Shown here in pieces: positions 4,131 through 35,998 of a stretch of DNA of 50,366 bases (the first letter of the stretch is position 1; each line of letters starts with the position of its first letter). The DNA is from an uncultured Clostridia bacterium (lineage in GTDB: Bacteria > Bacillota > Clostridia > RUG12999): contig CAMNSU010000009.1 in assembly GCA_946555455.1 (NCBI GenBank), positions 1 through 50,366 on the forward strand. Reading direction: 5' to 3'. The notes below the pieces were generated by a model, which worked only from the letters and a program-made list of their open reading frames with translations, was not told the origin of the DNA and ran no database searches. The position numbers and the translations under genes are program-made.

Positions 4131-4150
4131 TATGTAGGCTTATGATAGAT

Positions 4151-4228: not shown

Positions 4229-7200
4229 ATGAGACTAAAAAAGAAAGCTGCATTGCTGATGTTAATTGTAATGCTTTGCAGTTTGTTTGCTGGGGTATCA
4301 GCAACGACTTATGCTGCTGATAAGGGTTCAATTAAACTAGAAGTTTATAAACCAGCATCAGATGGAAACTTTGGTAACAAACTTAATCTAGCGACAGACA
4401 AAGTTAAAGAAGGCGACACTATTATTGTAGCGGTGCAGGCATATAAGGCAAGTACATTGTTTGGTCCAAAAGGGCTTGATACATTACAGTTGCAATTGTT
4501 ATATGATAGCACTGCAATAACGCAGCAGTTTATGAAACAGGGGGCAAATTACATTGCAGAGGAAACTCTTACAACAGCGGCCAGTGGACGTGGCTGTTCT
4601 GAAACACAGTATGCACAACAAGGTTTTATATCTAAAAATAGTGTAGTAGGTTCTCCAGATGATGGAATAGTTGATATGCCTAGTGCTGAAGCGGCATATG
4701 ATAAAGAGACTCGTTGGTATAATTTGTGTACAAATGAGACGGGTGCACCTTTCTATACTAACACTATTACTTTTAAGAAAGTACTGCCTGATGGTTCAAA
4801 TTGGAATAATCAAGTAAGAATTATTATGAATGCCACTGCATCCCAATTTTATAGTGATGGTACTAAAAATGCTATCATGCAGGGATTTGGTAGCGGTGAA
4901 GATAAAAAATTATTATATGCATTTTCGTTTAAGGTAAAAAGTTTACCGGCAGAGGGTATAAAATTTGAACTTGAATCATCACCCGATGATGCATTGGCGA
5001 TTCAATACTATCAAACAGAGGAATCAACTAGTAAAGTAAATAAAGTTTATTCAGAATTGATAGCAGAACGCATGGAAGAGGTGGCACCAGTTACAGTCCA
5101 ATGTGAACTTCCAGCGTCTGCAAAACCGACGGCTGGCAACTTGACAGACTATAATGCTGGTAGTCGTAACGTAACTGTAACAGCGGCAACAGGTGCAACT
5201 GTTAATGTTTATGCAGATGCAGCTAAAACAACGAAACTTGGAACAGGAACAGCAGGAACAGCAATTGCGCTGAGCAGAGGCAGTGAAGCTGGTACTTCAG
5301 CTACTGTAAAAGCATTGAACCTTGGTGAAGTTTATGTTACAGCAACAGAAGCTGGTAAAGGCGAAAGTGAAGCGCTTAAAGTAAGCGGCACAAAACGTCC
5401 GAACGAAACCATGATAACAACAACACCGACTGCAACAGCTAGTGCTGTAAAAGTGGGCGCACCGATTAGCGATGCTAAATTACCTGCAAAGGTACGAGTT
5501 CCATTCACCTATGTTGGCAATACAGGCGCAGAACCCGGTGGTGATGGAGATGTTCCTGTTACATGGGCTTGGAAAGAGGGACACAGACCGACTACAGCAG
5601 GTACGCCAGCAGTAGCAGTAGCTACTTATGGAGCTTTGACTCTGCCGCTGAAATATCAGGATAATATCAACAATTATATACCGGAAGTTAACGTTACGGT
5701 TTCTGCAGCAGAATATACCGCAGCAACAGCAACAAGTCCGGCAACAGAAACCGCACAATCAGCATATGCGAAAGGTTGGACAACAGAAGCGGCGTTGAAA
5801 GCATGGCTGGATGCGAATGTGAAAGTAAACACAACCAAAGAAGGCAATGTAACAGCGACAGAATCAACCGCTTGGACAAAGACAGCCGGAGACTTTAGCG
5901 TAAAAGGCGGTACATATACCTATGAATCTGGTGCATTTGGTAGTGAGAAAGCAACGATTACCGTGAAAGTAACACCGGTAAAAGGTGAACTGGGATGGCG
6001 CGCGACAAAGGATGAAATTTCCGTGACAGCGTTGGATGAAGAACTCAACGTAGTTGAAAGACCGACGACCAACGAGGCGTTAATCGCTTTGATGCCGGCA
6101 AAGGCTTTTGTAAACTATGGTGACGCAGCCAGTCCGTCACAGGGAGAAGCAGATCTGACCTGGACTGTGGAATCGCTGAGCAGCGACACAGGAGCGCTGA
6201 CAGACGGCGCTGTAATGGGTACATTGATTCGTACAGTAACATTGCCGGCAGACTTGGCATGGCTGACTGTTGATACGAATCCGGCGCCGGACAAAGTAAC
6301 AGTAAAAGCGGCATTGGCGCTCGGCGGCGTTAGAGCAACAGCAGCAAATATGCCCGGCACCGATAACGACATGATTCGGGTAACAGCGGATAATCAGCAA
6401 ATAGATATCATGAGGAAATTGGTAGCAAAAGAGGGCGCTGTCATTGAAGTCTATGACAGCAAAGAAGCAACAGAGCCTTCTATCACGCATACTGTCACAG
6501 CAGAAGAAGCGACGCAAGCACTGTTTACCACAGACAACTTCAAGACAGCAGGCAGCACACGCTATGTTGGTATTAACTATAAAGGCATGAAAACACCAAA
6601 TGAAAGCCGTCTCGAAATGGCAGTGCCGGCAGAACCGGCAGTAACGCTCACAGGTACTGCAACCTCAGTCAAAGAGGGTGCTACAATCACTGAAACAGCA
6701 CAACTGAACGGCACTTGGACATTCGTTGCCGACAGCCAGACATGGGCGAGCAGCGCGGACGCAACACTGACTGCTACAGCAAATGCAGACAAATCAACTG
6801 CAACACTCAAAGGTATTGCAGCAGGTACTGCAACTGTGACATTCACAGCAAAAGTGGAGCATCCGTTCAAAGCAGAGCTGATTGCAGCAAATCCGGACGC
6901 TACTAACACAGAAGTTGAAGTGACTGCAACAAAAGCATATTCTGTAACGAAAAAAGCTACACCACCGACCCCAACTAATCCGACTACTCCGGGAACACGT
7001 CCTGGTACTAGCGGAAACCATGGCACTGGCGGCGTTGTGATTGTTCCGTCTGAAAAACAATATTTCATTGATATCGACAACATCACATGGGCAAAAGACA
7101 AAATCAATGCTCTGGCTGAAAAAGGTATCGTTGAAGGTGTTGCAGACAAAATCTTCGCACCAAACAATACGGTAACAAGAGCAGAATTTGCGAAAATGAT

Positions 7201-7609
7201 TGTTGGTGCATTCGGTATCTATGATACAAATGCAACCATGGACTTTGTTGATACAGTAGGTGCAGAAAATGAATGGTACTACAAATATGTAGCTTCTGCT
7301 GCAAAACGCGGTATCATCTTGGGTTATGAAGAAGACCACACCTTCCGTCCGACACGTACAATCTCTCGTGAAGAAATGTGCGCTATCGTTGTTCGTGCTT
7401 GCAAAGCAACAGGCAGAACTCTGGTTCGGAAACATCAGCCGATTACCTTCAACGACGATGCTAGCATCATGGGTTATGCAAAAGAATCTGTTGACCTGAT
7501 GACAAGCGCTGGTATCATCGACGGTATGGGTGAAAACATGTTCGTACCGAAGGGAAGCGCTACAAGAGCACAAGCTGCTAAAATTATCTATGATGTAACC
7601 ATTGGATAA
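4229..7609 (+). CDS. SLH-anchored surface protein, paralogue of the preceding gene
   Basis: About 1126 aa. Two ATGs occur in a row (4226, 4229); AGGAGG at 4216-4221 lies 7 bases before the second, which I prefer. A signal peptide ends near TTYAADKG. Residues ~30-290 are homologous to the same part of the upstream dockerin-tailed protein (shared GLDT-QLQLLY, YAQQ-F-SKNS, GSGEDKK). Ala/Thr-rich beta domains follow, including a Big2-like segment (about 790-915), then a Pro/Thr linker (PTPTNPTTPGTRPGTSG). Three SLH repeats close the protein, with the motifs WAKDKINALAEKGIVEGV, TRAEFAKMIV and SREEMCAIVVRA. SLH domains bind pyruvylated secondary wall polymer, so this one is probably wall-attached. 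The same N-terminal module is thus carried on two different anchors in adjacent genes. Confidence 0.9.
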   Translation: MRLKKKAALLMLIVMLCSLFAGVSATTYAADKGSIKLEVYKPASDGNFGNKLNLATDKVKEGDTIIVAVQAYKASTLFGPKGLDTLQLQLLYDSTAITQQFMKQGANYIAEETLTTAASGRGCSETQYAQQGFISKNSVVGSPDDGIVDMPSAEAAYDKETRWYNLCTNETGAPFYTNTITFKKVLPDGSNWNNQVRIIMNATASQFYSDGTKNAIMQGFGSGEDKKLLYAFSFKVKSLPAEGIKFELESSPDDALAIQYYQTEESTSKVNKVYSELIAERMEEVAPVTVQCELPASAKPTAGNLTDYNAGSRNVTVTAATGATVNVYADAAKTTKLGTGTAGTAIALSRGSEAGTSATVKALNLGEVYVTATEAGKGESEALKVSGTKRPNETMITTTPTATASAVKVGAPISDAKLPAKVRVPFTYVGNTGAEPGGDGDVPVTWAWKEGHRPTTAGTPAVAVATYGALTLPLKYQDNINNYIPEVNVTVSAAEYTAATATSPATETAQSAYAKGWTTEAALKAWLDANVKVNTTKEGNVTATESTAWTKTAGDFSVKGGTYTYESGAFGSEKATITVKVTPVKGELGWRATKDEISVTALDEELNVVERPTTNEALIALMPAKAFVNYGDAASPSQGEADLTWTVESLSSDTGALTDGAVMGTLIRTVTLPADLAWLTVDTNPAPDKVTVKAALALGGVRATAANMPGTDNDMIRVTADNQQIDIMRKLVAKEGAVIEVYDSKEATEPSITHTVTAEEATQALFTTDNFKTAGSTRYVGINYKGMKTPNESRLEMAVPAEPAVTLTGTATSVKEGATITETAQLNGTWTFVADSQTWASSADATLTATANADKSTATLKGIAAGTATVTFTAKVEHPFKAELIAANPDATNTEVEVTATKAYSVTKKATPPTPTNPTTPGTRPGTSGNHGTGGVVIVPSEKQYFIDIDNITWAKDKINALAEKGIVEGVADKIFAPNNTVTRAEFAKMIVGAFGIYDTNATMDFVDTVGAENEWYYKYVASAAKRGIILGYEEDHTFRPTRTISREEMCAIVVRACKATGRTLVRKHQPITFNDDASIMGYAKESVDLMTSAGIIDGMGENMFVPKGSATRAQAAKIIYDVTIG

Positions 7610-8456
7610 TCAAGTAGCATCGTAATATACAGGGCGAGTATATAGCATTTTGAATGGACAGTATAAAAAAGGGAAATCCCGCGGGCGGTTTGCCCGCGGG
7701 ACACCCTCCATTCCTATGAATACATGGGAATCTATTTATACAGGAAAGAAGAAATGACTGATATGCTCGCTTTGTTATATTATGATAACGGTTGAAAAGT
7801 GATTATCATGCAAACTCCATAGAATTTACAAAAAAGAATGTACTGTGCATTAATAAGGCGATATAGAAGCCGGACGGCACAAAAATAGCGCATAAAAATC
7901 AGGCTGCAAAAAAGGGAACTCTTAAAAGTTGCATAAGAGAGAATTGCGAAAGTGAAAACTGCAAGACGACAAGAAGTAATACAAAAAGAATTGCAAGAAA
8001 ACTGAAAGAAGTACTGCAAAAAGAGTTGCGAAAAATTGCAAGAAAAACTGCAAAAAGAGAGGGAAGTCAAAAACATTGTTGCGCGCAAGAATTCGAGCGG
8101 TGCGGCACAATCTATATGCAAAACCGGAGCAACAGCAGTCTGAAAAAATAATATTGTGCGAAAATGGTATTGCGCGAGTAGGAAAAACGAAAAGAAGGCT
8201 TTTTTGTAAATTGTGTGGGGGTATATGAAAAGCGGCAGAGACGAGAAATCGTTTGCACCAACGTGTGTTTGGGTATAAAAGGGTTGATTCTCATGCGGTT
8301 TGTGGGACAGATTTTCCATATGATATCCGATTTTTTATGCCTATAGTTCATGCGCCATATAAAAATGCTTTTGCGGCAAATGATGCAGCCTTTGTCAAAC
8401 AGCGCAGAGAAATACGCAAAAACAGCACACAGGAACAATGAAAGGGGCGATATACA
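7610..8456. other. 847-bp intergenic region with hairpin and A-rich TGCAA-repeated tract
   Basis: No supported gene. After the hairpin at 7677-7701 the region holds a small inverted repeat (TGATAA 7783-7788, TTATCA 7803-7808). A purine-rich tract at ~7920-8065 follows, in which TGCAA or TGCGA recurs between runs of A; the TGC positions are 7930, 7945, 7960, 7992, 8015, 8027, 8037 and 8049. Reverse-strand open frames here are low-complexity Phe/Leu/Gln strings produced by this tract. The rest (8070-8440) shows no family I recognise. It is upstream of an SLH gene, so a long 5' leader or a curved promoter region is possible. Confidence 0.5.
7677..7701 (+). terminator. GC-rich hairpin after SLH gene
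   Basis: The stem TCCCGCGGGC/GCCCGCGGGA with a GGTTT loop begins 68 bases after the stop. It is very stable but is not followed by a clear T-run. Confidence 0.6.
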
Positions 8457-10568
8457 ATGAAAAAGAGAGGCATACTGTTAGTATTGGTATTTATTTTGGC
8501 GCTCACTTCTATGGCGGGAATTTCCGCTGCTGATGGAGCAGGAGAAGTAGTGCCGGAGAACATCAAAAGCGGCATTACATTTCAGGTGCTCAGAGAATCG
8601 AAAAGAGTGGAAGAAATCGTTGTCGGCGACATGATTCAACTGGAAGTATGGGTCTATGACATTGCGCCGCAGGCAATTGTGCTGCCTATTAAATTCAATC
8701 CCAAGGTGTTGCAGGTTGTTGACAAACGCCAGGGGGAAAACACCTATACACCTGTGACAAGCGGGTTTAAGACAGCAGAGGACAAACGGGTGGGGAATGC
8801 CGGATTCCAGACGTATTCTAAGCCTAGCTATGACACTACAACATGGGAACCAACCTATTGGAACGGCAACGTTCAATTTTATAAAAGTTATCCGTACTTG
8901 AATAATGAAACGGGTATTTATAAATTCTTTTTCTGGTCGGACAATCCATTCACAGCCAAACAGCCGAACAAAAAAATGTCCATTAACTTCCGCGCCATCG
9001 GAGAAGGTGATTGCGGTATCGGTATTGCTACAAAAGAGGATGGAGACCATCTGGCGGAAGATGATGTTGACGGACGCAGTGAATATTATGATGTTTCCTC
9101 GGCGCAGGGTGCAGTGGTAGCATTCCCGAACAAGGATATGTATTTACCGGCGGAGAGCATGGAATTTGACCCGTCCAGCGCGGTAATTTATACAGATTTG
9201 ATTAATAAAGTGAATTGCAAAGTAGTGAGTGCGAAACCAAATTTTAGTCAAGGAAGTAGCATTGGCAGCAGCGGCAGTGCAACCGCGGCACCGGTGACAA
9301 CGCCGAAACCCTCGCCCACACCCACACCGGGACCGCCGGAGTTGAAAACAGAATTGGTGGCAAAACCCACAGTCGCAACGCTGCCGCTGAAAGAAACCAT
9401 TTCCATTAAAGCGGCAATCAAACCGAATGCTAACAATGAAATTACCAATAACTGCGAATATATGGTGGTGCCAAAGGAACTGGAAAGTTTGCTAAACAGC
9501 GAAGATGCGCGCAAGGCAAAAGATATTGTGGTGGAAATGCCGGATGAAATTCTGCAAAGTTCGCAATATATTGTGAATATCCGTACAATCTATTTCCGTA
9601 CCATGGATCAAAAGGAAATCAAGAATATCTATTTCAACACCCCCTATGGAACGGTGGGAATGCTGATTCCGTCGTTTTTACGCACCAAGAGTCTGGTAGA
9701 TGGAGAATTGAAATTCGTGGTTTCGGGCGGAGAAGGCAGTCTCCGTGTCAGCGCTTTTCTGGACGGAACGGTTTTAGAAGGCGTAAAAACAGGACGTATC
9801 GCTAAAATTGCGATTCCCTATGAGACGCAGACACCGGATAAGATTGTTATGACACACACACGGGGAGACGCTACTTATAAAATTCCGCTGTCTTGTTATT
9901 TGGAGAAGGAAAAACTCGTCTATGCGATGTATACCGAATATGGTAATTTTGCAGTCGAACAAAGTGGCAGCAGCACCTTCACAGATTTGGATACAGTGCA
10001 GTGGGCGCAGGAATCCATTGCACTTTTGGCAGATAAAGGCGTTATCAATGGCGTGAGTGAAACAATATTTGCACCGGATAATCAGGTAACGCGGGAAGAA
10101 TTTGCAAAAATGCTGGTGGAAGCCTTTGGACTTTTGCTGCCGGAGGCAGATAGTGAATTTACAGATGTGGAAAACGGCAGTTGGTACGAACCTTATGTAG
10201 CGTCCGCAACCAATGCGGAAATTACCAAAGGAATCAGCGAGACAGAATTTGGAATCGGACAGCAAATCAGCCGCGAGGACATGGCGACAATGGTAGAACG
10301 CGCGATGGTAAACGTGGGACTACATCAACCGCAAGATACAACGGATGATATCGTGATTGGCGATAAAGAAGAAAAATTCCGGTTTGCGGACGACGACCAA
10401 ATCGCTTCCTATGCAAAAGACGCCGTCTACCGTATGCAAAAAGAGGAGATTCTGTCCGGTAAGGAAAACAATTTGTTTGACCCGAAAGGATATGCAACGC
10501 GGGCAGAAGCTGCAAAAATCATCGGGCTGGTATTCCGGCAGATGTTGCAGCAGATTCAGCCGGACTAA
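8457..10568 (+). CDS. SLH surface protein with cohesin-like N-terminal domain
   Basis: 703 aa. AAAGGGG at 8441-8447 supports the ATG; a signal peptide ends near GISAADG. Residues ~35-215 look like a cohesin-type or related beta-sandwich: VGDMIQLEVWVYDI, then IKFNPKVLQVVD, and KKMSINFRAIGEGDCGIGI near the end. This is the usual cohesin layout, but the match is by eye. A Pro/Thr linker (TTPKPSPTPTPGPP, ~280-295) leads to a second beta domain. Three SLH repeats finish the protein (~500-700: WAQESIALLADKGVINGV, TREEFAKMLVEA, SREDMATMVERA, TRAEAAKIIG). Such an architecture, wall anchor plus cohesin, is that of an anchoring scaffoldin and would fit the dockerin-tailed protein upstream. That pairing is inference. 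A strong terminator follows. Confidence 0.88.
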   Translation: MKKRGILLVLVFILALTSMAGISAADGAGEVVPENIKSGITFQVLRESKRVEEIVVGDMIQLEVWVYDIAPQAIVLPIKFNPKVLQVVDKRQGENTYTPVTSGFKTAEDKRVGNAGFQTYSKPSYDTTTWEPTYWNGNVQFYKSYPYLNNETGIYKFFFWSDNPFTAKQPNKKMSINFRAIGEGDCGIGIATKEDGDHLAEDDVDGRSEYYDVSSAQGAVVAFPNKDMYLPAESMEFDPSSAVIYTDLINKVNCKVVSAKPNFSQGSSIGSSGSATAAPVTTPKPSPTPTPGPPELKTELVAKPTVATLPLKETISIKAAIKPNANNEITNNCEYMVVPKELESLLNSEDARKAKDIVVEMPDEILQSSQYIVNIRTIYFRTMDQKEIKNIYFNTPYGTVGMLIPSFLRTKSLVDGELKFVVSGGEGSLRVSAFLDGTVLEGVKTGRIAKIAIPYETQTPDKIVMTHTRGDATYKIPLSCYLEKEKLVYAMYTEYGNFAVEQSGSSTFTDLDTVQWAQESIALLADKGVINGVSETIFAPDNQVTREEFAKMLVEAFGLLLPEADSEFTDVENGSWYEPYVASATNAEITKGISETEFGIGQQISREDMATMVERAMVNVGLHQPQDTTDDIVIGDKEEKFRFADDDQIASYAKDAVYRMQKEEILSGKENNLFDPKGYATRAEAAKIIGLVFRQMLQQIQPD

Positions 10569-10658
10569 AAACGATAGAATAGTAAAGCGGTTGTGTATTT
10601 TACTATGCAGGACTGTCCGGAACAGAAAAATTTTAATCAGGATATTATGATGCATATC

Positions 10659-10695
10659 ACCGGCGCCGGTCTGAATCGGCGCCGGTTTTGCTTTT
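10659..10695 (+). terminator. Intrinsic terminator after cohesin-like/SLH gene
   Basis: A 10-bp GC-rich stem, ACCGGCGCCG/CGGCGCCGGT, with an 8-base loop is followed by TTTTGCTTTT. It ends the upstream transcript before the htrA promoter. Confidence 0.85.
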
Positions 10696-10837
10696 GGAAA
10701 ATGAAAAGAGTGCAAATTGGAATGAGTGCATATAAGTGGATGGGTTTTGTTATAAGGACAAATATCACAGGCGACAGATGAACCATAAAGTGAAATAGAT
10801 TAAAAATAATTTAGTTTGTTCGTAGAACATTTACATA

Positions 10838-10865
10838 TTGTTCATAATTTCGCAAAGAATATGAT
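10838..10865 (+). promoter_or_regulatory. htrA promoter with adjacent TGTTC/GAACA palindrome
   Basis: TTGTTC (10838-10843), a 16-bp spacer and TATGAT (10860-10865) form a sigma-A-type promoter about 45 bases before htrA. Just upstream is the perfect inverted repeat TGTTC-GTA-GAACA (10817-10829), and its GAACA half recurs as GTTC inside the -35 box. This could be an operator for a stress regulator; which one is unknown. Confidence 0.65.
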
Positions 10866-10912
10866 GTATGATACATACATAAGATGAATCAAAAGAAAAC
10901 GGAGGGATTCAT

Positions 10913-12190
10913 ATGGCAGATTTTAATGATTATAAATGGTACAGTGATGATTACGAAAAAAGCCGCGGACAAATGCAAGATGGTAATGCCGGCGGAACAA
11001 ATCACACAATATATACAGAGACTGTTATTCCGAAAAAGAAAAAACGGACAAAAACATGGATTGCATCAATTGCAGGTATTATGGCAGCAGTGGTATTGGT
11101 TGGCGCTGGTGCAGTCGGCTATAAATATTTAGGTGGCGGACAAAACGCAGCACCGGGCGGCAGCGAGAATCACTTAGCAACAGACCCCAACACTTCTTTC
11201 CATTTTGAACAACTCACCAACGGTGAACAAAAGGCAATGAGCGTTGTGGATATTGCAAAAGAAGTTGGACCGGCGGTTGTCGGGATTACCAATACAGCGC
11301 AGGTACAATCCTTCTTTGGTATCAGCGAACAGCAATCCAGCGGTTCCGGTGTGATTATCAGCCAGGAAGGATATGTTGTAACCAACAACCATGTGGTAGA
11401 AGGCGCAAAAGAATTATCCGTACAGCTGAACACTGGAGAAGAATATGCGGCAAAGCTGATTGGGGCAGACGCACAGACGGATTTGGCGGTGATTAAAATT
11501 GAACCCAAAGGAACTTTGACCGTTGCCAAGTTGGGTGAAAGCGCAAAACTCCAAGTCGGAGAATTGGCAGTTGCAATTGGAAACCCGTTGGGCGCAGAAT
11601 TATCCGGTTCCGTTACCATGGGTATCATCAGCGGTTTGAACAGAACCATTCAAACAGACAGCCGCGACCCCAATAGCACCATGACGCTGATTCAGACCGA
11701 TGCAGCAATCAATCCTGGAAATTCAGGTGGTGCGTTGATTAACGGATATGGCGAAGTGATTGGTATTAATAACATGAAATATGCAGATGAAAATGTGGAA
11801 GGTATTGGGTTTGCCATTCCGATTGATACAGCGAAAACAATTGTCAATGATTTGATTGAAAGCGGCTATGTGAAAGGTCGTCCGCTGATTGGTATTACTG
11901 TGCAGGAGGTTACTTCTGACATTGCGTTTAGAAATAACTTGCCGGTGGGACTTTATGTAGCACAGGTGAGCGAACTGGGACCTGCTGACAGAGCGGGTAT
12001 GCAGCGCGGCGACGTGATTACGGCGGTCAATGGTAAAAAGATTGAGAACAGCCGTGAACTGAATGAAATTAAGAATAATTCTAAGGTTGGCGACGTGTTA
12101 ACGTTTACGGTTGAGCGCGACGGCAAAAAAATGGATATTGCGGTAACACTTCAGGAGGATAAATCCAGAGCAGCAGTACCGCAGGGTTAA
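10913..12190 (+). CDS. htrA: HtrA/DegP-type membrane-anchored serine protease with PDZ domain
   Basis: 425 aa, with GGAGGG 9 bases before the ATG. The order is: a polar cytoplasmic N-terminus (1-45, ending PKKKKRTK), one membrane segment (~49-70), a chymotrypsin-fold protease domain (~105-315) and a C-terminal PDZ domain (~325-415, GPADRAGMQRGDVITAVNGK). The catalytic triad is complete: His160 (TNNHVVEGA), Asp190 (QTDLAVIKIE) and Ser271 (NPGNSGGAL). Family members degrade or refold misfolded exported proteins at the outer face of the membrane. It sits among large secreted and SLH proteins, so quality control of those products is a natural job, but that is inference. It has its own promoter and appears monocistronic. 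Length and domain order are normal for Gram-positive HtrA. Confidence 0.95.
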   Translation: MADFNDYKWYSDDYEKSRGQMQDGNAGGTNHTIYTETVIPKKKKRTKTWIASIAGIMAAVVLVGAGAVGYKYLGGGQNAAPGGSENHLATDPNTSFHFEQLTNGEQKAMSVVDIAKEVGPAVVGITNTAQVQSFFGISEQQSSGSGVIISQEGYVVTNNHVVEGAKELSVQLNTGEEYAAKLIGADAQTDLAVIKIEPKGTLTVAKLGESAKLQVGELAVAIGNPLGAELSGSVTMGIISGLNRTIQTDSRDPNSTMTLIQTDAAINPGNSGGALINGYGEVIGINNMKYADENVEGIGFAIPIDTAKTIVNDLIESGYVKGRPLIGITVQEVTSDIAFRNNLPVGLYVAQVSELGPADRAGMQRGDVITAVNGKKIENSRELNEIKNNSKVGDVLTFTVERDGKKMDIAVTLQEDKSRAAVPQG

Positions 12191-12253
12191 TTTGCTCCCC
12201 CAATTTTTAATATATATTTTAGCTTGGCAGGATCCCCTTTTTCCTGCCGGCTG

Positions 12254-12296
12254 CACGAAAATGCACAGTCCCATTTGGTTGGCTGTGCATTTCGTG
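12254..12296 (+). terminator. Long hairpin after htrA
   Basis: CACGAAAATGCACAG pairs with CTGTGCATTTCGTG with a single bulged A, 64 bases past the stop. The stem is strong, but the following bases (TTGCATTCC) are not a T-run. Confidence 0.6.
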
Positions 12297-12546
12297 TTGC
12301 ATTCCAAAACTGGTACAAGACAGCATGAAATGCAAAAAATCAATGAGACGGGCAACTTTTGTCATGGGCATTACAGAATATTTTTTAGGCAAAAGACGTA
12401 TGTTTTTAGGAAACCTAAGTGTTTCACTTCATGGCGAGGGTGTGGTATTCCCCATGAGATGCAGCAATGACTGCTGCCGGAAGAAGAGGTCGAGCGGCTA
12501 TGGTACCCTCTCCCACAAAAGGCGTATGCGCTCTTGGGAGGGAGAG

Positions 12547-12845
12547 TAAGCAAAGGAGAGTCGAACCGCGTGCGGTCTCCGAGGCAGATTTCCTTGCCTA
12601 CTACGTTAAAATCACTTGAAATACGCTAGTATTCCCGCGTGCTTTTGCCTTGTCGGCAAAAAAATCTGCTATCGGAGACTTCAAAGAACCGTTGCGCGTC
12701 AAAATTTTTTGCAAGGCAAGGAAAAGGTTCCTTTGCATACTGGGCGTACGCGTGCCACGGAGTGGTATGGAAAGCGGTTCGTGGGCGTTGCATTTGCATA
12801 AAATTTTTCGCGCACGGCACATGTGGTTCGACTATCCTTTGCTTA
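12547..12845. repeat. Nested imperfect inverted repeat (~300 bp), MITE-like or structured RNA
   Basis: The outer arms 12547-12567 (TAAGCAAAGGAGAGTCGAAC and one more C) and 12825-12845 are inverted copies matching at 20 of 21 bases. Inside them 12575-12591 (GTCTCCGAGGCAGATTT) pairs with 12662-12679, and 12589-12599 (TTTCCTTGCCT) pairs perfectly with 12714-12724. A smaller hairpin (TTTTGCC/GGCAAAA) lies near 12645-12660. No transposase or convincing ORF is present; frames reading through here into the next gene lack a ribosome site. The rest of 12297-12968 contains further short palindromes (for example CCTCTCCC near 12508 with GGGAGGGAGAG near 12536) and no recognised gene. It may be a miniature mobile element or an interspersed intergenic repeat. 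Confidence 0.65.
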
Positions 12846-12968
12846 AGAGTACCGGAAAAGAAAAGGGAACTTTTTGGCAGACGGGAGCGTCTAATAAAAT
12901 GTGAAGCGGGAAACGAGATATTTATTTTTAAACCCGCGCCTAATTTGAAACAGAAAGGGATGAACGGT

Positions 12969-15900
12969 ATGAAAAGAATTGTAGCGGTCGTATTGTCGTG
13001 TATGATGTGCTTTGGCATCATGCAAAGCGCATTTGCTTATACGGATGTGCCGGGCGATGCAAACTATGGAGAAGCCATTGAAGTATTATCGGCTCTCGAG
13101 ATTTTAAAAGGAGACCCGGAGGGAACGTTCCGTCCGAGTGATACGATTACAAGAGCAGAATTTGCCGCGGTGATTTGCCGTGCATTGGGACTTGGCGATG
13201 CGGCGATTGGTATCGGCGGCAGCACAAAGTATTATGATGTGCAACAGGGACATTGGGCAACCGGATATATCAATATGGCGACGCAGCGGGGCATTATCAA
13301 CGGAGACCCGGAAGGGACATTCCGTCCGGAAGACCCTGTACTATATGAAGAAGCGGTAAAAATGGTAGTGGCGGCGCTGGGGTATACGCCGGCGGCAATG
13401 CGGGACGGCGGATATCCGACAGGATTTATCACCATTGCTTCCCAAGAGAGAATTTTGAAAAATGTCACAGGAACAAACGGCAGCCGTGCACCGCGTTCCA
13501 TGGTAGCGCAAATGACATTCAATGCGCTGGAAGTGCCGATTATGGCGCAGACATCGTTCACCCAAGGCGCCGGTTATATTACATATGAAAAAACAGACCG
13601 GATGTTGCTTGACAATCTGGATGTAGAAAAAATGGAAGGTACGGTTGTGCAGGTACCCGGTTCCACTTCAAACCGTACGGAGAAAAACCAAATTACTTTT
13701 GACGTAGACAGACGTTATGAATACATTAATGGAAACCGCGTGTATTATAACGTGCAAAACTTCAATCAGAAAATGGATGTTGGCGAAACAGATGCAATGA
13801 ATTATCTGGAATCCTATTGCAGCGTTTATGTGCGCGGTATGGACGAAGATGAAGCGGTTATTATTGCGATTTATCCCAAGAATGGCAAAACCACGTTCAT
13901 TGAAATTGAAGATATCAACATCAACACAATGAAACTGGATGAACTGACGACGCGGGGACGGTTATATTATTATGACAAAAGTTATTCCTCCTCACGCGAG
14001 CAGAGCGTATACATTGACCAGTCCCAGATTACCTATTACTATAATGGGACAAAAGAAACCGGTGCAACGATTGATGATATCAAAAACCGGCTGGACAAAG
14101 GAATTAACGGCGTAATCCGTCTGGTCAATAACGATAATGATTCAGAATATGACGTTGTTTTCATCTATGACTATACGGATATCGTTGTGGACGACGTCAA
14201 TTTGAAAAACTACCGTATTTTAGGAAAGAACAATGGCGGCAGCCTGTATCTGGACAATACAGAACCGGATGCATGTTTCACCATTGAGAAAAACGGACGA
14301 GAAATTGAACTGAGCGATATTCGTAAGGACGACGTACTCAGCTACTATGGTCGCGTAGAAGACCGTAAACTGTTGTCCGGTAAAGTGATTGTATCGCCCA
14401 ACAGCGTTGTGGAAGGGTCCATCACTTCTTATTCGCCGGATGACCACGAAATTGAAGTGGACTATGAAAAGTTTGAATATAAACCGGAAAATTTCACGGA
14501 ACGCGATTTGAGAGTTGGAAGCTATGGTATGTTCTATCTGAACTTCAGAAATAAAATCATTGCTTCTGATACCAAGATTATGCTGTCCAACACCAAATTC
14601 GGTTTTGTCACAAAAATCGGAACAGGCGGCGGCATATCGAGTTCTCTGGAAGCAAGAATGCTGACGGCTGACGGTAATTGGGTGACCTACAACTTTGCGA
14701 ACAAAGTTATCGTAAACGGTGAGGATAACTCCATTAGCGCGACAAGTCTCATGGAAGACGGCGTATGGAATCAGTATAAACCGGCAGATTGGAACTGCAC
14801 GGAACCGGTGACCAATGTGAGAAAAGTATATTCTCTGGTAACCTATACAATGGATTCCAAAAACCAGATTAAACGAATCAACTTTGATTTGGCGAACACC
14901 AACGTCACAGGAGACGACTATCAATATAAAGCATTTAGCAATTCCTACAATGCAGCAGCAGAAAGTCTTGGCGGCATTTATACAACAGGCAGCACACTCA
15001 TCTTTGACGTGCCGCAGAACAACCGCTACAATGCGAACGAAAACGACATTGTTTTGGGCAAAGCAGATGCATTGATTGACGACATGACCTATAGCGGTAA
15101 TGCGTTCATTGACAGAGATTCCAGAGAAGCGCTGGCAATTGTCGGCAGCAATCTGGTGGGCAACATCAACTATGCACAGCCTGTGATGGTTGTCAGCGGC
15201 GTGAAAACGGTTGCCAGCGACGACGGCGATGTGGTTGCACTGAGCGGCTATCAGAATAGTGAAGCGGTCAGCGACGTACGCTACGAGAGATCTGAGATAA
15301 CCATTCACAATGAGACCGGTATCAGCGGTGTGAGCGGTATTCAGAAAGGCGACGTTATCACGTATACAACCTTGCCAAACGGCAGAATCAAAGACGCAAG
15401 CATACTTTTCCGTCCGTCTACCATGATCGTACAAGATATGGTGATTAACCGCAACACACCGAGCGGTGCAATCACGTATATCACAACAAATGATTCAGCG
15501 AGAACGACATTCCTGTATGGTCTGGTTCGTAAAATCAGCGGTCGGAGACTGGATATCGCTTACGACGATACCTATGCGGAAACAGAATCTTTTGCAGTGA
15601 AATCGGGCGTTAATGTTGTCATGTATGATGGCATCAACTATTCCAATGCAAGAGTTGCAATGGCGGATATTGGCGACATTGATACAGACAGAGACGCGGA
15701 TAATTCACCGGCGAGCGACAGCGGAGAATTTGTCTTTGCAAGAGCAGAAGACGGCATTATCATGGACGTTCTGATTGTAAAACGTGACGAACGGTATCGT
15801 GACGACGGCGCATCAACACTGAAATCCAACGATGCAACGCTGAAAAATATCACGGTGGAAGGCGTCACTTTAAATGAAACATTCTCACCGAAAGTAACAG

Positions 15901-16544
15901 AATATACAGCGACAGTGGAAAACGAAGTGGAAACGGTAGCAGTCGGCGCGGCTGCAAACCATGCCAACGCGGTTATCTCCGGCACCGGAGATAAAACGCT
16001 GACAGTAGGCGAAAATGTGATTCCGATTTCTGTGAAAGCGGAAGATGGAACAACAATGTCATATACATTGACGATTACGAGAAAAGCCTCTAGCAATGCA
16101 AATTTGAGCGCAATTCAAGTGAACAGCGGCGTAGTAACGCCGGCATTTGACGCAAATGTGCTGAACTATACCTGGACGGTAAGCAATGCAAACGGCATTC
16201 AGATTACAGGACAGCCTGCGAATGAAGGGGCAAAGGTCACAGTGACAAATGAATTGGTGCGGGAAACACCGGTCTATCACATCAACGTGACGGCACAGGA
16301 TGGAACAACGACAAAAACGTATATCGTTACATTGGCAGTGGACGCTGCGATGAGTTCGCAGCCCACGCCGATTCCGACACCTACGCCGACACCCACACCG
16401 ATTATTATCGTTTCGCCTACGCCGGTTTCTACGCCGACTCCGACTGTAGCGCCCACGGTGACACCGACGCCACTACCGACTGCAACGGCGACGCCAACCG
16501 CAACGCCTACGCTGGCACCGTCGGTAACGCCTACGCCTACTTAA
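12969..16544 (+). CDS. Large SLH-domain protein with cadherin-like repeats, ended early by in-frame TAA
   Basis: I start it at ATG 12969 (MKRIVAVVLS), nine bases after AAAGGG (12954-12959). The frame stays open upstream to 12639, but without a ribosome site and without signal-peptide character there. The product is 1191 aa: a signal peptide (~1-22, ending QSAFA), three N-terminal SLH repeats (~23-190; GDPEGTFRPSDTITRAEFAA), a long uncharacterised middle (~200-930), two cadherin-like beta-sandwich repeats (~950-1120; DATLKNITVEG, NANLSAIQVNSG) and a Pro/Thr linker. The TAA at 16542-16544 falls inside that linker. The same frame continues for another 217 codons with more Pro/Thr linker and a beta-helix-like domain. 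The intact protein would be about 1409 aa. SLH repeats at the N-terminus differ from the C-terminal SLH of the two upstream proteins. Confidence 0.88.
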   Translation: MKRIVAVVLSCMMCFGIMQSAFAYTDVPGDANYGEAIEVLSALEILKGDPEGTFRPSDTITRAEFAAVICRALGLGDAAIGIGGSTKYYDVQQGHWATGYINMATQRGIINGDPEGTFRPEDPVLYEEAVKMVVAALGYTPAAMRDGGYPTGFITIASQERILKNVTGTNGSRAPRSMVAQMTFNALEVPIMAQTSFTQGAGYITYEKTDRMLLDNLDVEKMEGTVVQVPGSTSNRTEKNQITFDVDRRYEYINGNRVYYNVQNFNQKMDVGETDAMNYLESYCSVYVRGMDEDEAVIIAIYPKNGKTTFIEIEDININTMKLDELTTRGRLYYYDKSYSSSREQSVYIDQSQITYYYNGTKETGATIDDIKNRLDKGINGVIRLVNNDNDSEYDVVFIYDYTDIVVDDVNLKNYRILGKNNGGSLYLDNTEPDACFTIEKNGREIELSDIRKDDVLSYYGRVEDRKLLSGKVIVSPNSVVEGSITSYSPDDHEIEVDYEKFEYKPENFTERDLRVGSYGMFYLNFRNKIIASDTKIMLSNTKFGFVTKIGTGGGISSSLEARMLTADGNWVTYNFANKVIVNGEDNSISATSLMEDGVWNQYKPADWNCTEPVTNVRKVYSLVTYTMDSKNQIKRINFDLANTNVTGDDYQYKAFSNSYNAAAESLGGIYTTGSTLIFDVPQNNRYNANENDIVLGKADALIDDMTYSGNAFIDRDSREALAIVGSNLVGNINYAQPVMVVSGVKTVASDDGDVVALSGYQNSEAVSDVRYERSEITIHNETGISGVSGIQKGDVITYTTLPNGRIKDASILFRPSTMIVQDMVINRNTPSGAITYITTNDSARTTFLYGLVRKISGRRLDIAYDDTYAETESFAVKSGVNVVMYDGINYSNARVAMADIGDIDTDRDADNSPASDSGEFVFARAEDGIIMDVLIVKRDERYRDDGASTLKSNDATLKNITVEGVTLNETFSPKVTEYTATVENEVETVAVGAAANHANAVISGTGDKTLTVGENVIPISVKAEDGTTMSYTLTITRKASSNANLSAIQVNSGVVTPAFDANVLNYTWTVSNANGIQITGQPANEGAKVTVTNELVRETPVYHINVTAQDGTTTKTYIVTLAVDAAMSSQPTPIPTPTPTPTPIIIVSPTPVSTPTPTVAPTVTPTPLPTATATPTATPTLAPSVTPTPT

Positions 16545-21473: not shown

Positions 21474-21749
21474 AAGCCGTACTAGCTGGGGCGGTAGCGG
21501 TGCCCTGTACTTGCAGTCCGCTATAGCAAGGGCGAATTCCTTTTAGAGGGCTATTTTTTTGTGTTGTCGGGCAGGATGCTGCGGCGTTGATGATCGGGTC
21601 TTGCGCAATGTGAAGCTGTGAACCTCGTCAGGCGGGGAACCGAGCAGCGATAAGCAGTGTTTCACATGTGCCGCAGGAGCGCCTGGTCGGAGTTTGCTGT
21701 TTCTGTTACGGGCACAGTCGTAGTTCGACGAAAGGTGTACGGCTTTTTT
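21474..21749 (+). ncRNA. ffs: Signal recognition particle RNA, large Gram-positive type (scRNA)
   Basis: The closing helix pairs AAGCCGTAC (21474-21482) with GTACGGCTT (21737-21745), and T6 ends the gene. The 5' Alu-type part contains GGTAGCGGTGCCCTGTA and GCAGTCCGCTATAGC, the Bacillus scRNA signature. The S domain contains GAACCTCGTCAGGCGGGGAA followed by GAGCAGCGATAAGCAGT, the Ffh-binding region. It forms the RNA core of SRP, which targets nascent membrane and secreted proteins. Location just before dnaX is the classic Firmicute arrangement. The ~276-nt length fits the long form. An internal run of seven T (21554-21560) is unusual. Confidence 0.93.
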
Positions 21750-21795
21750 ATTTGAAAAATGAAGACGGGCCGAACTCGGAAGGAAGGCGGCGGAT

Positions 21796-23349
21796 ATGGC
21801 TTATCAAGCATTATACAGAAAATTCAGACCAACAACATTTGATGACATTGTCGGACAAAAACATATCACACAAACATTGCGAAATGAAATTTTGATGGGC
21901 AGAATAGGTCATGCCTATTTGTTCACAGGAATCCGCGGAACGGGCAAAACGACAACGGCAAAAGTGTTTTCGCGCGCAATTAACTGTTTGAATAATGTAG
22001 ATGGAAGCCCCTGCAATGAATGTGAGATTTGCAAGGGGATTTTGGATGGCAGCATTTTAGACGTGGTGGAAATGGACGCCGCAAGCAACAATGGTGTGGA
22101 GGATATCCGTGAAATTCGTGAAGAAGTCATGTATACGGCAGCGTCTACAAAATATAAAATCTATATCATTGACGAAGTGCACATGCTTTCCACCGGCGCG
22201 TTTAACGCATTGCTGAAAACCTTGGAAGAACCGCCGGAACATGCGGTGTTCATTTTGGCGACAACAGATGTGCATAAGCTGCCGGAAACCATTTTGTCGC
22301 GTTGTCAGCGGTTTGATTTCCGGCGGATTACCATGGAGGACGTGAAACAGCGTCTGCGGGAAATTGCCGAGGCAGACGGTGCAAAGGTGGAAGATGAGGC
22401 GCTTGGCGTGATGGCGCAGCTTTCGGAAGGGTCTATGCGCGACGCTATCAGTACGCTGGATCGCTGTCTCGCGTTTGGCAAAGAACAGGTGACCTATCAA
22501 GACGTGATAGATATTTTGGGGATTGCAGGCATTGAGGTAAGCTGCCGTATGATACAGAGCATCGGAAAAGCAGACGTGGCGGGGGCGCTGCATTTGCTGG
22601 ACGAAGTGCTGTCCAAAGGGAAATCCATTACGCAGGTGGCAGATGGATTGTTGGACGCGCTGCGCAATGTGTTGATTTGTAAAATCACGCAAGGCGCAGA
22701 GGCGGCGGTGCCGGTGGACAGCAGTCATATGGCATTGCTGAAAGAGACGGCAGAAGGTATTTCGGAAGAACAGTTGATTCATTGTGTGTCCGTGTTGACG
22801 CAAACCGGACAGGCAATTCGCTTTAGCAGCAATCCGCGGATTTTGCTGGAACTGGCGTTTGCAAAAATGGGAATGCCGCAATATGTGGATACGCAGGAAG
22901 CATTGGTCAGCAGAGTGGCGCAATTGGAGCAAAAGCTGGAACAAGGTGTGCCTATGGCAGCGCCGGCGGCAGCAACGCCGGTGGCGGCGCAAAAAACAGA
23001 GCCGGCAGTTTCTCCCAAAAAAGTGGTGTATGCAGGTCCAATGCATGACAAATGGAAAGAAATCGTGGGCGTGATAAAACAGACGCATAAAGGGCTGGGC
23101 GCGGCGATTGGACTTGCCAAGGCGGCAGATGACGGAGAAGATTTGGTGATTCTGCTGGACAAGGAAGATACTTTTGGGCTGGGCGCGATGTTTCTCAAGG
23201 AGGAATATCAGAAAATTTTGAGCGACGCCGTGGAACAGGTGTGCGGACGGCGGCCGCGTATGATTAAGACGGAACGGGAATTTGTTTTGGAGGAAAGTGA
23301 CCAGGCGCTGCGCGAAAAAGCGGAGCAAAAGGGCATTGAAATACAATAA
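21796..23349 (+). CDS. dnaX: DNA polymerase III subunit gamma/tau
   Basis: 517 aa. An AAGGAAGG-type site precedes the ATG. It is a clamp-loader AAA+ ATPase: Walker A GIRGTGKT (45-52), zinc-binding cysteines 64, 73, 76 and 79 (CNECEIC), DEVH Walker B (126-129), sensor 1 LATTDVHKLP and SRCQRFDF. Domains II-III follow to ~365, then an Ala/Pro linker (~375-400) and a short C-terminal domain. It loads the sliding clamp and ties polymerase to helicase. It is shorter than the ~560-640 residues of typical tau. First protein gene of the SRP RNA-dnaX-ebfC-recR unit; ebfC follows after 41 bases. Confidence 0.96.
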   Translation: MAYQALYRKFRPTTFDDIVGQKHITQTLRNEILMGRIGHAYLFTGIRGTGKTTTAKVFSRAINCLNNVDGSPCNECEICKGILDGSILDVVEMDAASNNGVEDIREIREEVMYTAASTKYKIYIIDEVHMLSTGAFNALLKTLEEPPEHAVFILATTDVHKLPETILSRCQRFDFRRITMEDVKQRLREIAEADGAKVEDEALGVMAQLSEGSMRDAISTLDRCLAFGKEQVTYQDVIDILGIAGIEVSCRMIQSIGKADVAGALHLLDEVLSKGKSITQVADGLLDALRNVLICKITQGAEAAVPVDSSHMALLKETAEGISEEQLIHCVSVLTQTGQAIRFSSNPRILLELAFAKMGMPQYVDTQEALVSRVAQLEQKLEQGVPMAAPAAATPVAAQKTEPAVSPKKVVYAGPMHDKWKEIVGVIKQTHKGLGAAIGLAKAADDGEDLVILLDKEDTFGLGAMFLKEEYQKILSDAVEQVCGRRPRMIKTEREFVLEESDQALREKAEQKGIEIQ

Positions 23350-23390
23350 AGCAGCGTTAGCTGCAAAGAGATTGAAAGGAGCATAACAAA

Positions 23391-23735
23391 ATGGGAAAAG
23401 GAAAATTTAATGGCTTTCCGGGCGGCGGAAATATGAACAACATGCTGCGCCAAGCGCAGAAAATGCAGGCAAATATGGAAAAAATGCAGGAGGAACTGGA
23501 AGCAAAAGAAGTGGAAGCATCCTCGGGCGGCGGCATGGTGACGGTAAAAGTGACAGGGAAAAAGAAATTGACGGAAGTGGTTATTAAACCGGAAGCGGTA
23601 GACCCTGACGATGTGGAAATGCTGCAAGATTTAGTGCTGGTGGCAGTCAATGACGCGCTTGCGAAAGTGGACGAAATGACAGAACAGGAAATGGGCAAAA
23701 TCACCGGCGGAATCAGTATGCCAGGATTATTTTAA
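23391..23735 (+). CDS. ebfC: YbaB/EbfC family nucleoid-associated protein
   Basis: 114 aa: a Gly-rich start ([18 protein letters not shown]), the amphipathic helix [20 protein letters not shown], the strand-rich core [19 protein letters not shown] and [20 protein letters not shown], and a C-terminal helix. Members form dimers that bind DNA without strong sequence preference. The dnaX-ebfC-recR order is conserved across bacteria and supports the call. The start is the ATG after AAAGGAGC. A terminator lies between it and recR. Confidence 0.95.
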
Positions 23736-23743
23736 AGAAACCG

Positions 23744-23786
23744 AAAAGGAGATGTAAAAAACTTGTGTTTCTACATCTCCTTTTTT
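23744..23786 (+). terminator. Intrinsic terminator between ebfC and recR
   Basis: AAAAGGAGATGTA (23744-23756) pairs with TACATCTCCTTTT, and T6 follows (23781-23786). It would reduce recR expression from the dnaX promoter. Confidence 0.85.
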
Positions 23787-23820
23787 ACAGACTCTTTTCA
23801 CGAGGGAGGAGGAAGGAATC

Positions 23821-24411
23821 ATGTATATTGCACCACTAGACCGTTTGGTGACGGAGTTTGCAAAGCTGCCGGGAATTGGGCGGAAATCTGCGGCGCGGCT
23901 TGCGTTTTATGTGCTGAATCAGCCGCAGTCTACGGCGCAGCAGCTTGCAGACGCCATTTTACAGGCGAAAGAACAGATTCACTATTGCAGTATTTGCCAG
24001 AACCTGACAGACGAAGACCCGTGCGCGATTTGCAGCAGCGAGCGGCGTGACCGCTCGGTCATTTGCGCTGTGGAAACACCGCGGGACGTGATTGCTATTG
24101 AAAATACCAAAGAATATACAGGACTGTATCACGTACTGCATGGCGCGATTTCGCCGATGGACGATATTGGGCCTGACGATATCAAGCTCAAGGAATTGGT
24201 GGCGCGCTGCGCCGACGGCGTGCAGGAAGTGATTGCAGCGACAAACCCAACGGTAGAAGGGGAAGCAACGGCGATGTATATCGCGCGGCTGCTCAAACCA
24301 TTGGGCATTAAAGTGACCAGAATCGCACACGGCATTCCTGTGGGCGGCGACTTGGAATATGCAGATGAAATTACGCTGGGAAAAGCAATTGAAGGACGAC
24401 GGGAATTGTAA
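23821..24411 (+). CDS. recR: Recombination mediator protein RecR
   Basis: 196 aa, the usual length. The N-terminal HhH segment ([15 protein letters not shown], 16-30), a zinc finger (Cys56, 59, 68, 71: [16 protein letters not shown]) and a Toprim domain (~78-175, [17 protein letters not shown] to [19 protein letters not shown]) are all present. RecR works with RecO (and RecF) to load RecA on SSB-coated single-stranded DNA. A purine-rich GGAGGAGGAAGG site precedes the ATG. It is the last gene of the dnaX unit; a DnaA-box cluster starts 62 bases downstream. Confidence 0.96.
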
Positions 24412-24473
24412 AAAAATAGGAATGTTTTTTGGGCGGGGGACTTTGCTCTGCGGTGGGTTTATTTTGGCAAGAG

Positions 24474-24696
24474 TTATCCACATGGGAAAGCACGGAAAAT
24501 CACTTATACACCGACTTATCCACAGGGTGTGGAAAACCAATTGGCAAAAATACAATGGTAAATGGAGGAAAGTAGTTTACATAACTCGAAATTCGTAACC
24601 TTTTTGTAACAGAAAAGCCCAGAATTCATAGTTATCCACGAAGTTATCCACATTATCCACGAAGTTATTGCAGGGCGATGTGGATAATGTGGAAAC
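24474..24696. promoter_or_regulatory. Cluster of DnaA boxes between recR and efp
   Basis: Forward TTATCCACA boxes occur at 24474-24482, 24516-24524 and 24644-24652. TTATCCACG boxes occur at 24632-24640 and 24653-24661. A reverse TGTGGATAA is at 24679-24687, and reverse variants are at 24528-24536 (TGTGGAAAA) and 24688-24696 (TGTGGAAAC). That is eight sites in 223 bases, followed by an AT-rich stretch (~24698-24790). Such density is typical of a replication origin, a DnaA titration/reactivation site, or DnaA control of a promoter. The genes do not change strand here, which argues against the main chromosomal origin. Confidence 0.85.
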
Positions 24697-24726
24697 AAAA
24701 AAATTCCGAAAAATACAAATTTTCTC

Positions 24727-24755
24727 TTGCTATTTGCGCCGTTTTATTATACAAT
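24727..24755 (+). promoter_or_regulatory. efp promoter
   Basis: TTGCTA (24727-24732), 17 bp, TACAAT (24750-24755). The 22-base block 24716-24737 spanning the -35 matches the block at 34083-34104 before another gene at 21 positions. Confidence 0.65.
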
Positions 24756-24807
24756 AATAAATAATAACAATGCAATCAAGTACAAAAAGATAAATGGAGG
24801 TAAAAAT

Positions 24808-25365
24808 ATGATTTCAGCTGGAGATTTCAGAAATGGTGTGACATTTGAACTGGAAGGAAACGTTTTTCAGGTGGTGAACTTTCAGCATGTAAAACCTGGA
24901 AAAGGCGCGGCATTTGTCAGAACCAAAATCAAAAATGTCATTACGGGTGCAGTTGTGGAACGTACATTCAGCCCGACGGACAAAATGCCAAAAGCACATA
25001 TTGACCGCCGTGATATGGAATATCTGTATAATGACGGAGATTTGTATTATTTCATGGACAGCGAAACCTATGAACAGCTGCCGCTGGGAACAGATTTGCT
25101 GGAAAATTCTTTGCCCTATCTGAAAGAAAACATGATTGTGAAAGTGTTGTCTTTCAAAGGCAGTGTGTTTGGGGTAGAACCGCCGAACTTTGTGGAACTG
25201 GAAGTGGTTGAGACAGAACCTGGTTTCAAAGGTGATACGGCAACCGGCGCAACAAAACCGGCGAAGCTGGAAACCGGCGCAACTGTAAACGTTCCGCTGT
25301 TTGTAGAACAGGGGAATGTCATTCGCGTTGACACCAGAACCGGCGAATACATGGAACGCGTATAA
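24808..25365 (+). CDS. efp: Translation elongation factor P
   Basis: 185 aa from ATG 24808, seven bases after GGAGG (24796-24800). The frame runs upstream to 24727, but those codons lie in the promoter. Three beta-barrel domains fill the normal EF-P length. The tip loop is [10 protein letters not shown] with Lys32, the position modified in many bacteria; no modification gene is next to it. Domain III ends with [32 protein letters not shown] binds between the P and E sites of the ribosome and relieves stalling at proline runs. That fits a genome coding for the Pro/Thr linkers seen in the surface proteins. Confidence 0.96.
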
Positions 25366-35087: not shown

Positions 35088-35448
35088 GTTGAGTAAGCCA
35101 GACAATCGCGGGTCGTCCGGCTGAAGGCTGGGCGGCATGAGGAAAGTCCGAGCTCCGCGAACCAAGGGTGCTGGGTAACTCCCAGTGGAGGCGACTCTAA
35201 GGAAAGTGCAACAGAGAGATACCGCCGGCATTTTAGCAGCTGGCAAGGGTGGAAAGGCGAGGTAAGAGCTCACCAGCGTTTAGGCGACTATTCGGCTATG
35301 TAAACCCCACCTGGAGCAACACCAAAAGCAGAAACCTTAAAATGGTTCTAAATGGTTTCTAATAGGTAGGTGGCTTGAACCGTATAGTAATATGCGGTCT
35401 AGATAGATGATTGTCCAATACAGAACTCGGCTTATAGACTTGCTCAAC
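35088..35448 (+). ncRNA. rnpB: RNase P RNA, class A
   Basis: The ends pair: GTTGAGTAAGCC (35088 onward) with GGCTTAT-GACTTGCTCAAC (to 35448). Conserved core pieces in order: GAGGAAAGTCCGAGCTCC, ACAGAGAGATACCGCC, GGTAAGAGCTCACCAGCG, AACCCCACCTGGAGCAA, GGCTTGAACC, GATGATTGTCC and ACAGAACTCGGCTTAT. At ~361 nt it has normal length. It is the catalytic RNA that trims tRNA 5' ends and lies directly before a tRNA pair. A perfect -35 promoter and a terminator flank it. Confidence 0.96.
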
Positions 35449-35460
35449 ACCAGAAAATAT

Positions 35461-35485
35461 GCGGCTTCCAGGAAGCCGCTTTTTC
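35461..35485 (+). terminator. rnpB terminator
   Basis: GCGGCTT/AAGCCGC hairpin followed by TTTTT. The bases from here to the tRNA promoter (~35486-35715) hold no gene that I can support. Confidence 0.88.
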
Positions 35486-35715
35486 TATTTGTACGCTATT
35501 GCCATTTTTTATGAGTAAGGATTTGTATTTTAGAAAAGAATGATAGGCAGAGTATTCAAAATAAAAAATGGTGCAATAATAGAGAGGGGAGACAAACAAA
35601 AGTTGAATCGCTTATGCCTAAACGATACCGGTCGGTTTTGTAATTGGCGGAAAGAAGCGATGGCGGTGAAAGAAAACGGTTGCAGGAAAAGGAATATAAT
35701 TTTTAAAAAAAGATA

Positions 35716-35744
35716 TTGACAAATGGAAATCCATGTGCTATAAT
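35716..35744 (+). promoter_or_regulatory. tRNA-Thr/tRNA-Tyr promoter
   Basis: Perfect TTGACA (35716-35721), 17 bp, perfect TATAAT (35739-35744), 39 bases before the first tRNA. Confidence 0.92.
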
Positions 35745-35783
35745 AATGAAGTCGGTTAAAGGTAGTCCTTTTCCGGGCGATTT

Positions 35784-35859
35784 GCTGATGTAGCTCAATT
35801 GGCAGAGCAGCTGATTTGTAATCAGCAGGTTGCGGGTTCAAGTCCCATCATCAGCTCCA
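35784..35859 (+). tRNA. tRNA-Thr (anticodon TGT)
   Basis: 76 bases with encoded CCA. The acceptor GCTGATG pairs with CATCAGC; the anticodon arm is GCTGA-TTTGTAA-TCAGC with TGT; the T-arm contains GGTTCAAGTCC. It reads ACA and related Thr codons, which are plentiful in the Thr-rich surface proteins. Confidence 0.96.
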
Positions 35860-35913
35860 GAAAACAGCGGCGGGCGCATTTTTGCGCCCTGCATGTTTCA
35901 TAAAATTGCATAT

Positions 35914-35998
35914 GGAGGGGTTCCCGAGTGGCCAAAGGGGGCAGACTGTAAATCTGTTGTCTTCGACTTCGATGGTTCGAATCCATCTCCCTCCACCA
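35914..35998 (+). tRNA. tRNA-Tyr (anticodon GTA)
   Basis: 85 bases with encoded CCA and the long variable arm typical of bacterial tRNA-Tyr. Acceptor GGAGGGG pairs with CCCTCC plus a wobble/end base; the anticodon loop CTGTAAA holds GTA; the T-loop is GGTTCGAATCC. It is cotranscribed with tRNA-Thr 54 bases upstream. Confidence 0.95.

Follow-up and report, generated by a model that had tools for sequence, protein, structure and literature searches.

The DnaA-box cluster between recR and efp in an uncultured member of the Clostridia, a probable remote control site for replication timing

In Escherichia coli, datA has DnaA boxes flanking an IHF site and stimulates the hydrolysis of DnaA-ATP, and DARS promotes the release of ADP from DnaA. 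The bending of the DNA at datA and DARS2 is carried out by IHF. According to a 2026 review, datA and DARS are absent in Bacillus subtilis, as is IHF, and whether any regulator acts on the nucleotide state of DnaA there is an open question (PMC13220808). The joint removal of six DnaA-box clusters (DBCs) located outside oriC in this species leads to early initiation (PMC5295017, PMC13220808), and titration has been proposed for these clusters. The DnaA of E. coli prefers pairs of boxes that are 2–3 bp apart (PMC11317965).

The cluster between recR and efp was analysed within a window of 50,366 nucleotides, the whole stretch of DNA studied, from an uncultured Clostridia bacterium. It is a box cluster outside oriC and, like the B. 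subtilis DBCs, it has several closely packed boxes at a distance from dnaA and is not the only such site in its genome. It appears to differ from the DBCs in the fixed arrangement box-(30–33)-box-12-box-9-box, referred to here as the module, whose long spacer contains two A-tracts, and in having a double array with a central element. The module is origin-proximal in four of the relatives. The cluster probably controls the timing of replication from a distance and is unlikely to be an origin or to switch a gene.

Boxes and layout of the recR-efp cluster

The strict DnaA box was defined as TTATCCAC(A/G), i.e. TTATCCACR. A motif scan located six strict boxes within 24474–24687 (214 bp), four being TTATCCACA and two TTATCCACG, which agrees with the six boxes on both strands in 223 bases that had been claimed in the initial annotation. 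Three close variants are present (TTTTCCACA, TTATACACC and GTTTCCACA; Table 1), rather than the two counted there. The draft genome (G000) has 3,125,272 bases in 181 contigs and contains 76 strict boxes, from which 0.0054 are expected per 223 bp. The Poisson probability of at least six strict boxes in 223 bp is 3.5e-17, which multiplied by the genome length is approximately 1e-10 per genome. This is the densest cluster of strict boxes in the 3.1-Mb draft and the only other site in G000 with at least three of the 76 within 500 bp is C21:7614–7708. Three boxes extend across 200 bp at C156:3589, and the box pairs at C1:10366 and C48:16729 have no cluster around either of them. No RNA was found at the cluster site in Rfam.

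The central element, in outline GTTTACATAAC...TTGTAA, separates the two arrays and is probably the site of a second protein. An AT-rich stretch follows the boxes, as had been described, and the efp promoter placed after it is represented by a promoter-like site, TTGCTA-17-TACAAT (24727–24755), that is not above chance for such scans. Of 41 relatives, 40 have the efp product as a conserved protein encoded in one copy.

Elsewhere in the window, the large SRP RNA, dnaX, ybaB and recR occur at 21477–24411 in an order that is common in Firmicutes, and an RNase P class A RNA and two tRNAs are found at 35090–35995. Upstream of feoB, at 171–16544, there are large ORFs (1319, 1127, and 1301 aa); the proteins of this region include SLH, weak dockerin, and trypsin-PDZ matches and are probably at the cell surface.

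Table 1. Features of the recR-efp cluster, its neighbours, and associated sites in G000 and G002
Feature	Coordinates	Strand	Remarks
Composite DnaA-box element (array A, central element, array B)	24474–24696	+	Homologous ~230-bp units; matches to model R1
Array A	24474–24524		Two strict boxes and one 2-mismatch box
Array A box 1, TTATCCACA	24474–24482	+	Strict; motif scan
Array A spacer with two A-tracts, GGGAAAGCACGGAAAATCAC	24483–24503	+	Pattern in 14/15 other-family modules
Array A box 2, TTATACACC	24504–24512	+	2 mismatches; 30 bp past box 1; 30/12 register as in other families
Array A box 3, TTATCCACA	24516–24524	+	Strict; 12 bp past box 2; motif scan
Inverted box, TTTTCCACA	24528–24536	-	Variant; retained in G001 and G002
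Central element, GTTTACATAAC-N9-GTAACCTTTTTGTAA	24575–24609	+	Both g1 copies; modified at g2 ftsZ site
Array B	24632–24661 plus inverted boxes		Motif scan
Array B box 2, TTATCCACG	24632–24640	+	Strict; motif scan
Array B box 3, TTATCCACA	24644–24652	+	Strict; 12 bp past box 2; motif scan
Array B box 4, TTATCCACG	24653–24661	+	Strict; abuts box 3; motif scan
Inverted pair, TTTCCACAT-TATCCACA	24679–24696	-	Boxes at 24679 (strict, TTATCCACA) and 24688 (variant, GTTTCCACA); 26-bp spacing common to tRNA-Leu copy
AT-rich stretch	24697–24807		23% GC; base composition
recR, upstream neighbour	23821–24411	+	Pfam RecR domains
efp, downstream neighbour	24808–25365	+	Name from the initial annotation
Second composite copy	G000:C34:17981–18205 (L005:3982–4206)		Upstream of tRNA-Leu/tRNA-Gly pair
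Other box cluster	G000:C21:7590–7716 (L003:7590–7716)		Different arrangement; upstream of mutS2
Putative MITE halves	L042:1–175, L123:1–119		G002
Putative MITE copy	L183:1502–1782		G000

Copies of the composite and recurrence of the module

A BLAST search with 24600–24720 identified G000:C34:18149–18210 and its orthologues, and alignment showed that the entire 223-bp stretch is a composite that is duplicated upstream of tRNA-Leu. In both copies a pair of boxes at a distance of 42 (41) bp comes first, then the central GTTTACATAAC-N8/9-GTAAnCTTnTTGTAA element, then boxes at 12- and 9-bp spacing, with an inverted box after another 26 bp. In the tRNA-Leu copy there are 11 bp extra between the halves, which is about one helical turn, and a strong-looking promoter (TTGACA...TATAAT) lies between this copy and the tRNAs. 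A sequence model of the composite (R1) found these two, and no others, as strong copies in each of the three genomes of the genus. The sister genus g2 has a homologous composite as well, whose central element is related; it is beside ftsZ in G005 and on a short contig in G003. The other cluster, upstream of mutS2, is nearly invariant in the three species G000, G001, and G002 and is absent from the mutS2 upstream regions in other genera.

Non-dnaA loci found with R1 in further families have the module geometry when read in register. About nine clostridial families have this geometry whole or in large part (f1, f4, f7, f8, f10, f19, f22, f36, and f50; the f and g labels are working family and genus designations, not named taxa). 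In the genus of the window, g1 of family f1, its parts are divided between arrays A and B. The initial annotation mentioned neither that the boxes make up a class-wide, fixedly spaced module in two copies nor that the composite occurs again at tRNA-Leu. In f50 the 12/9 part is present but no first box is found at the usual distance, some loci, including that of f7, are without the second box, and an inverted box often follows. The loci examined are those returned by the model search, many of them in draft genomes. Since several R1 loci come from related genomes, families rather than loci are taken as the independent units, and because the filters of the large R1 search were strict, absence in a genome is not evidence. 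Partial or weak R1 matches without the geometry (L242, L245, L249, and L252) were left out of the module count.

When at least three boxes in the module register were required, with no more than one mismatch allowed, 18 of 30 R1 loci qualified, whereas none of the 30 dnaA loci and none of 3000 shuffles did. In 1.26 Mb of clostridial background the only further instances were copies of these sites. R1 itself selects for the 12/9 part. The first box, however, present at −51 to −54 at 15 loci, is outside array B, through which most loci were found, and is therefore evidence that is largely independent. The spacer between boxes 1 and 2 has two A-tracts (or A then T) in 14 of 15 modules, compared with a mean of 2.5 and a maximum of 7 in shuffles. 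A second model (R2), made from 15 other-family module sequences only, matched array A (24472–24524, E=2e-8) and array B (24612–24661, E=8e-12), the latter match not being fully independent because the R2 training loci were found through R1. At dnaA loci R2 gave only partial matches of 27 bits or less, most of the module copies tested having 30–45 bits. No description of the module geometry was found in the open-licence literature, and the conserved architecture is apparently undescribed so far.

The genes beside the module vary. In f4, f22, and f36 it adjoins a gene for an amino-acid ABC-transporter substrate-binding protein (SBP_bac_3), with a small zf_Tbcl protein also nearby in f22 and f36. 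It is by NAGPA or a histidine kinase in f10, by MatE in f8, near a RadC-like gene in f19, and downstream of spo0A in f50. The strand of the module relative to its neighbours is not constant. Such differences between neighbours, ftsZ included, suggest that the function is not bound to one gene. In four complete genomes the module is within roughly the first third of the replichore. From sampled skew, the origin is at 2.87–3.41 Mb and the module at 2.58 in G181, with corresponding positions of 1.10–1.34 Mb and 1.06 in G078 and 2.15–2.44 Mb and 2.60 in G151; the G194 sequence starts at dnaA and has the module 0.39 Mb away.

Sporulation regulators are near the module in complete genomes (L264, L265, and L266), namely sigH in G181, where tRNA-Gly is also near, and spo0A in G078 and G151. 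Replication control and sporulation may be connected in this way. The module was also found on two viral contigs, at L316:4939–4984 (R2 E=1e-12) and L315:763–803 (E=1e-8). The L316 module is among phage head genes and adjoins a Mu-F/ADP-ribosyltransferase fusion protein; the phage copy might bind host DnaA.

Relation to the chromosome origin and to efp

An origin of replication at the cluster, main or auxiliary, such as an ancient duplicated origin, would fit the number of boxes, their strand mix, and the AT-rich stretch directly after them, but is scarcely credible. Boxes on both strands are also a property of the clostridial bipartite oriC (rpmH-dnaA-dnaN), where isolated 12-bp pairs occur. 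There, however, dnaA and dnaN adjoin the boxes, whereas the flanking genes here are recR and efp, as had been noted from the outset, and the module is at none of the 30 dnaA loci. The observation that genes keep one direction through the site also holds: recR and efp are on the same strand, as are nearly all genes of the window. GC skew is positive in every 2-kb window across the 50 kb, with neither a sign switch nor a minimum at the site. The dnaA gene is missing from the G000 assembly, which has two weak AAA matches without the DnaA C-terminal domain. Both G001 and G002, of the same genus, have dnaA-dnaN loci in which boxes precede dnaA and also occur in the interval separating it from dnaN. 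True loss of dnaA in G000 was therefore rejected, its absence most likely being an assembly gap, and the bracketing of dnaA by boxes in the two relatives indicates that the usual bipartite origin is at another place. In G001 the AT-rich stretch, the candidate for an unwinding element next to the boxes, has diverged, and in G002 it is interrupted. Whole-genome cumulative skew and the position relative to dnaA-dnaN had been proposed as checks in the initial annotation; with skew uniform over the 50 kb and canonical dnaA-dnaN loci in the genus, the cluster was rejected as the chromosome origin.

Conservation of the boxes in relatives, whose absence had been named in the initial annotation as evidence against an origin, holds at this site for all three species of the genus compared (G000, G001, and G002). 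Box columns are 94% conserved against 82% for the rest at the recR site (P=0.014), and 98% against 77% at the tRNA site (P=8e-5). The recR and efp loci of other genera have no cluster and the two genes are not adjacent there, which limits conservation at this position to the genus; outside it the module recurs elsewhere in the chromosome. Control of efp transcription by DnaA, and likewise that of tRNA-Leu and mutS2, would couple their expression to replication. In B. subtilis DnaA also acts as a transcription factor (PMC4447404), and both g1 copies and the mutS2 cluster are upstream of promoters. Against this, the upstream regions of efp at approximately 100 loci outside the genus have no box cluster, the module in relatives adjoins unrelated genes in varying orientation, and the predicted efp promoter is not overlapped by boxes. 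The cluster and efp are on separate contigs in G002, each of which ends in one half of a multi-copy repeat bounded by perfect 15-bp terminal inverted repeats (ACCATCACTTGACAA); if the halves join, this repeat would be ~281 bp long. It parts the cluster from efp just past the putative efp −10. This putative MITE has 19 matches in G002 and 16 in G000. The presence of efp without the cluster in other genera, together with this repeat, makes an efp operator very unlikely. Three readings had been left open initially, and with the origin removed and efp control improbable, it is the titration or reactivation type that is favoured.

A possible role in the control of initiation

The preservation of the geometry at unrelated loci, its absence at dnaA loci, and its origin-proximal position in four relatives favour a function of DnaA at the level of the chromosome. 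The effect of cluster removal in B. subtilis and the preference for box pairs in E. coli favour titration of the initiator by a cooperative DnaA complex, the 12-bp repeats satisfying the 2–3 bp preference (PMC11317965). The preferred reading, with a probability of about 0.6, is that this is an extra-oriC DnaA-box cluster on whose two arrays DnaA assembles cooperatively, titrating the initiator. DnaA binding, DNA bending, titration, and the effect on initiation are all predicted from sequence. Tandem boxes at 12 bp (3-bp gap) and 9 bp (abutting) would bind neighbouring DnaA protomers, and the A-tract spacer would bend the DNA, bringing the first box into the same complex. The central element probably binds a second protein. 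The site would hold DnaA, and more of it once a passing fork has duplicated the site, leaving less free DnaA and delaying re-initiation at the dnaA-dnaN origin.

The fixed geometry exceeds what a passive sink needs, which points to an active complex of the datA/DARS kind over plain titration and makes a nucleotide switch the main rival. In such a switch an ordered DnaA complex would stimulate ATP hydrolysis or ADP release and so alter initiation competence. The strict 30–33/12/9 spacing with its A-tract spacer, the resemblance of the central element to a second-protein site, and the helical turn gained between the arrays of the tRNA copy are in keeping with it. DARS1 and DARS2 of E. coli share a tandem box pair with a 3-bp gap and an inverted box with the present cluster, and DARS2 has extra protein sites, comparable with the putative site at the central element. 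Similarly, the high-affinity boxes of datA are in non-coding DNA that is bent between them, a bend that here would come from the A-tracts, and datA adjoins tRNA-Gly genes, one g1 copy being upstream of tRNA-Leu and tRNA-Gly. The box layout differs from that of datA, however, which is IHF-dependent, and no IHF-type partner is known in B. subtilis (PMC13220808). The three-box core in its E. coli arrangement was not found when compared with the DARS1 region in L256, where the boxes (+1608, −1622, and −1634) are not in a 30/12/9 layout. A nucleotide switch is possible but doubtful. That the boxes are an anchor for chromosome organisation or segregation, bound by DnaA or another protein and without a role in initiation timing, is highly improbable; the module is origin-proximal in four genomes and has spo0A and sigH nearby in some, but DnaA boxes alone suffice to explain the motif.

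Titration by a cooperative complex remains the favoured function. It can be suggested, tentatively, that the module is a widespread clostridial counterpart of datA/DARS, in which a DnaA complex of fixed geometry, with A-tract bending replacing IHF and a second partner at the central element, would set the nucleotide state or availability of DnaA close to the origin, and which has been relocated with its architecture kept. The limitation of DnaA in Firmicutes is only partly understood. A conserved extra-oriC module in many Clostridia provides defined DNA on which titration and nucleotide switching can be weighed, and the sequence model of the module can be used to find it in genetically tractable species.
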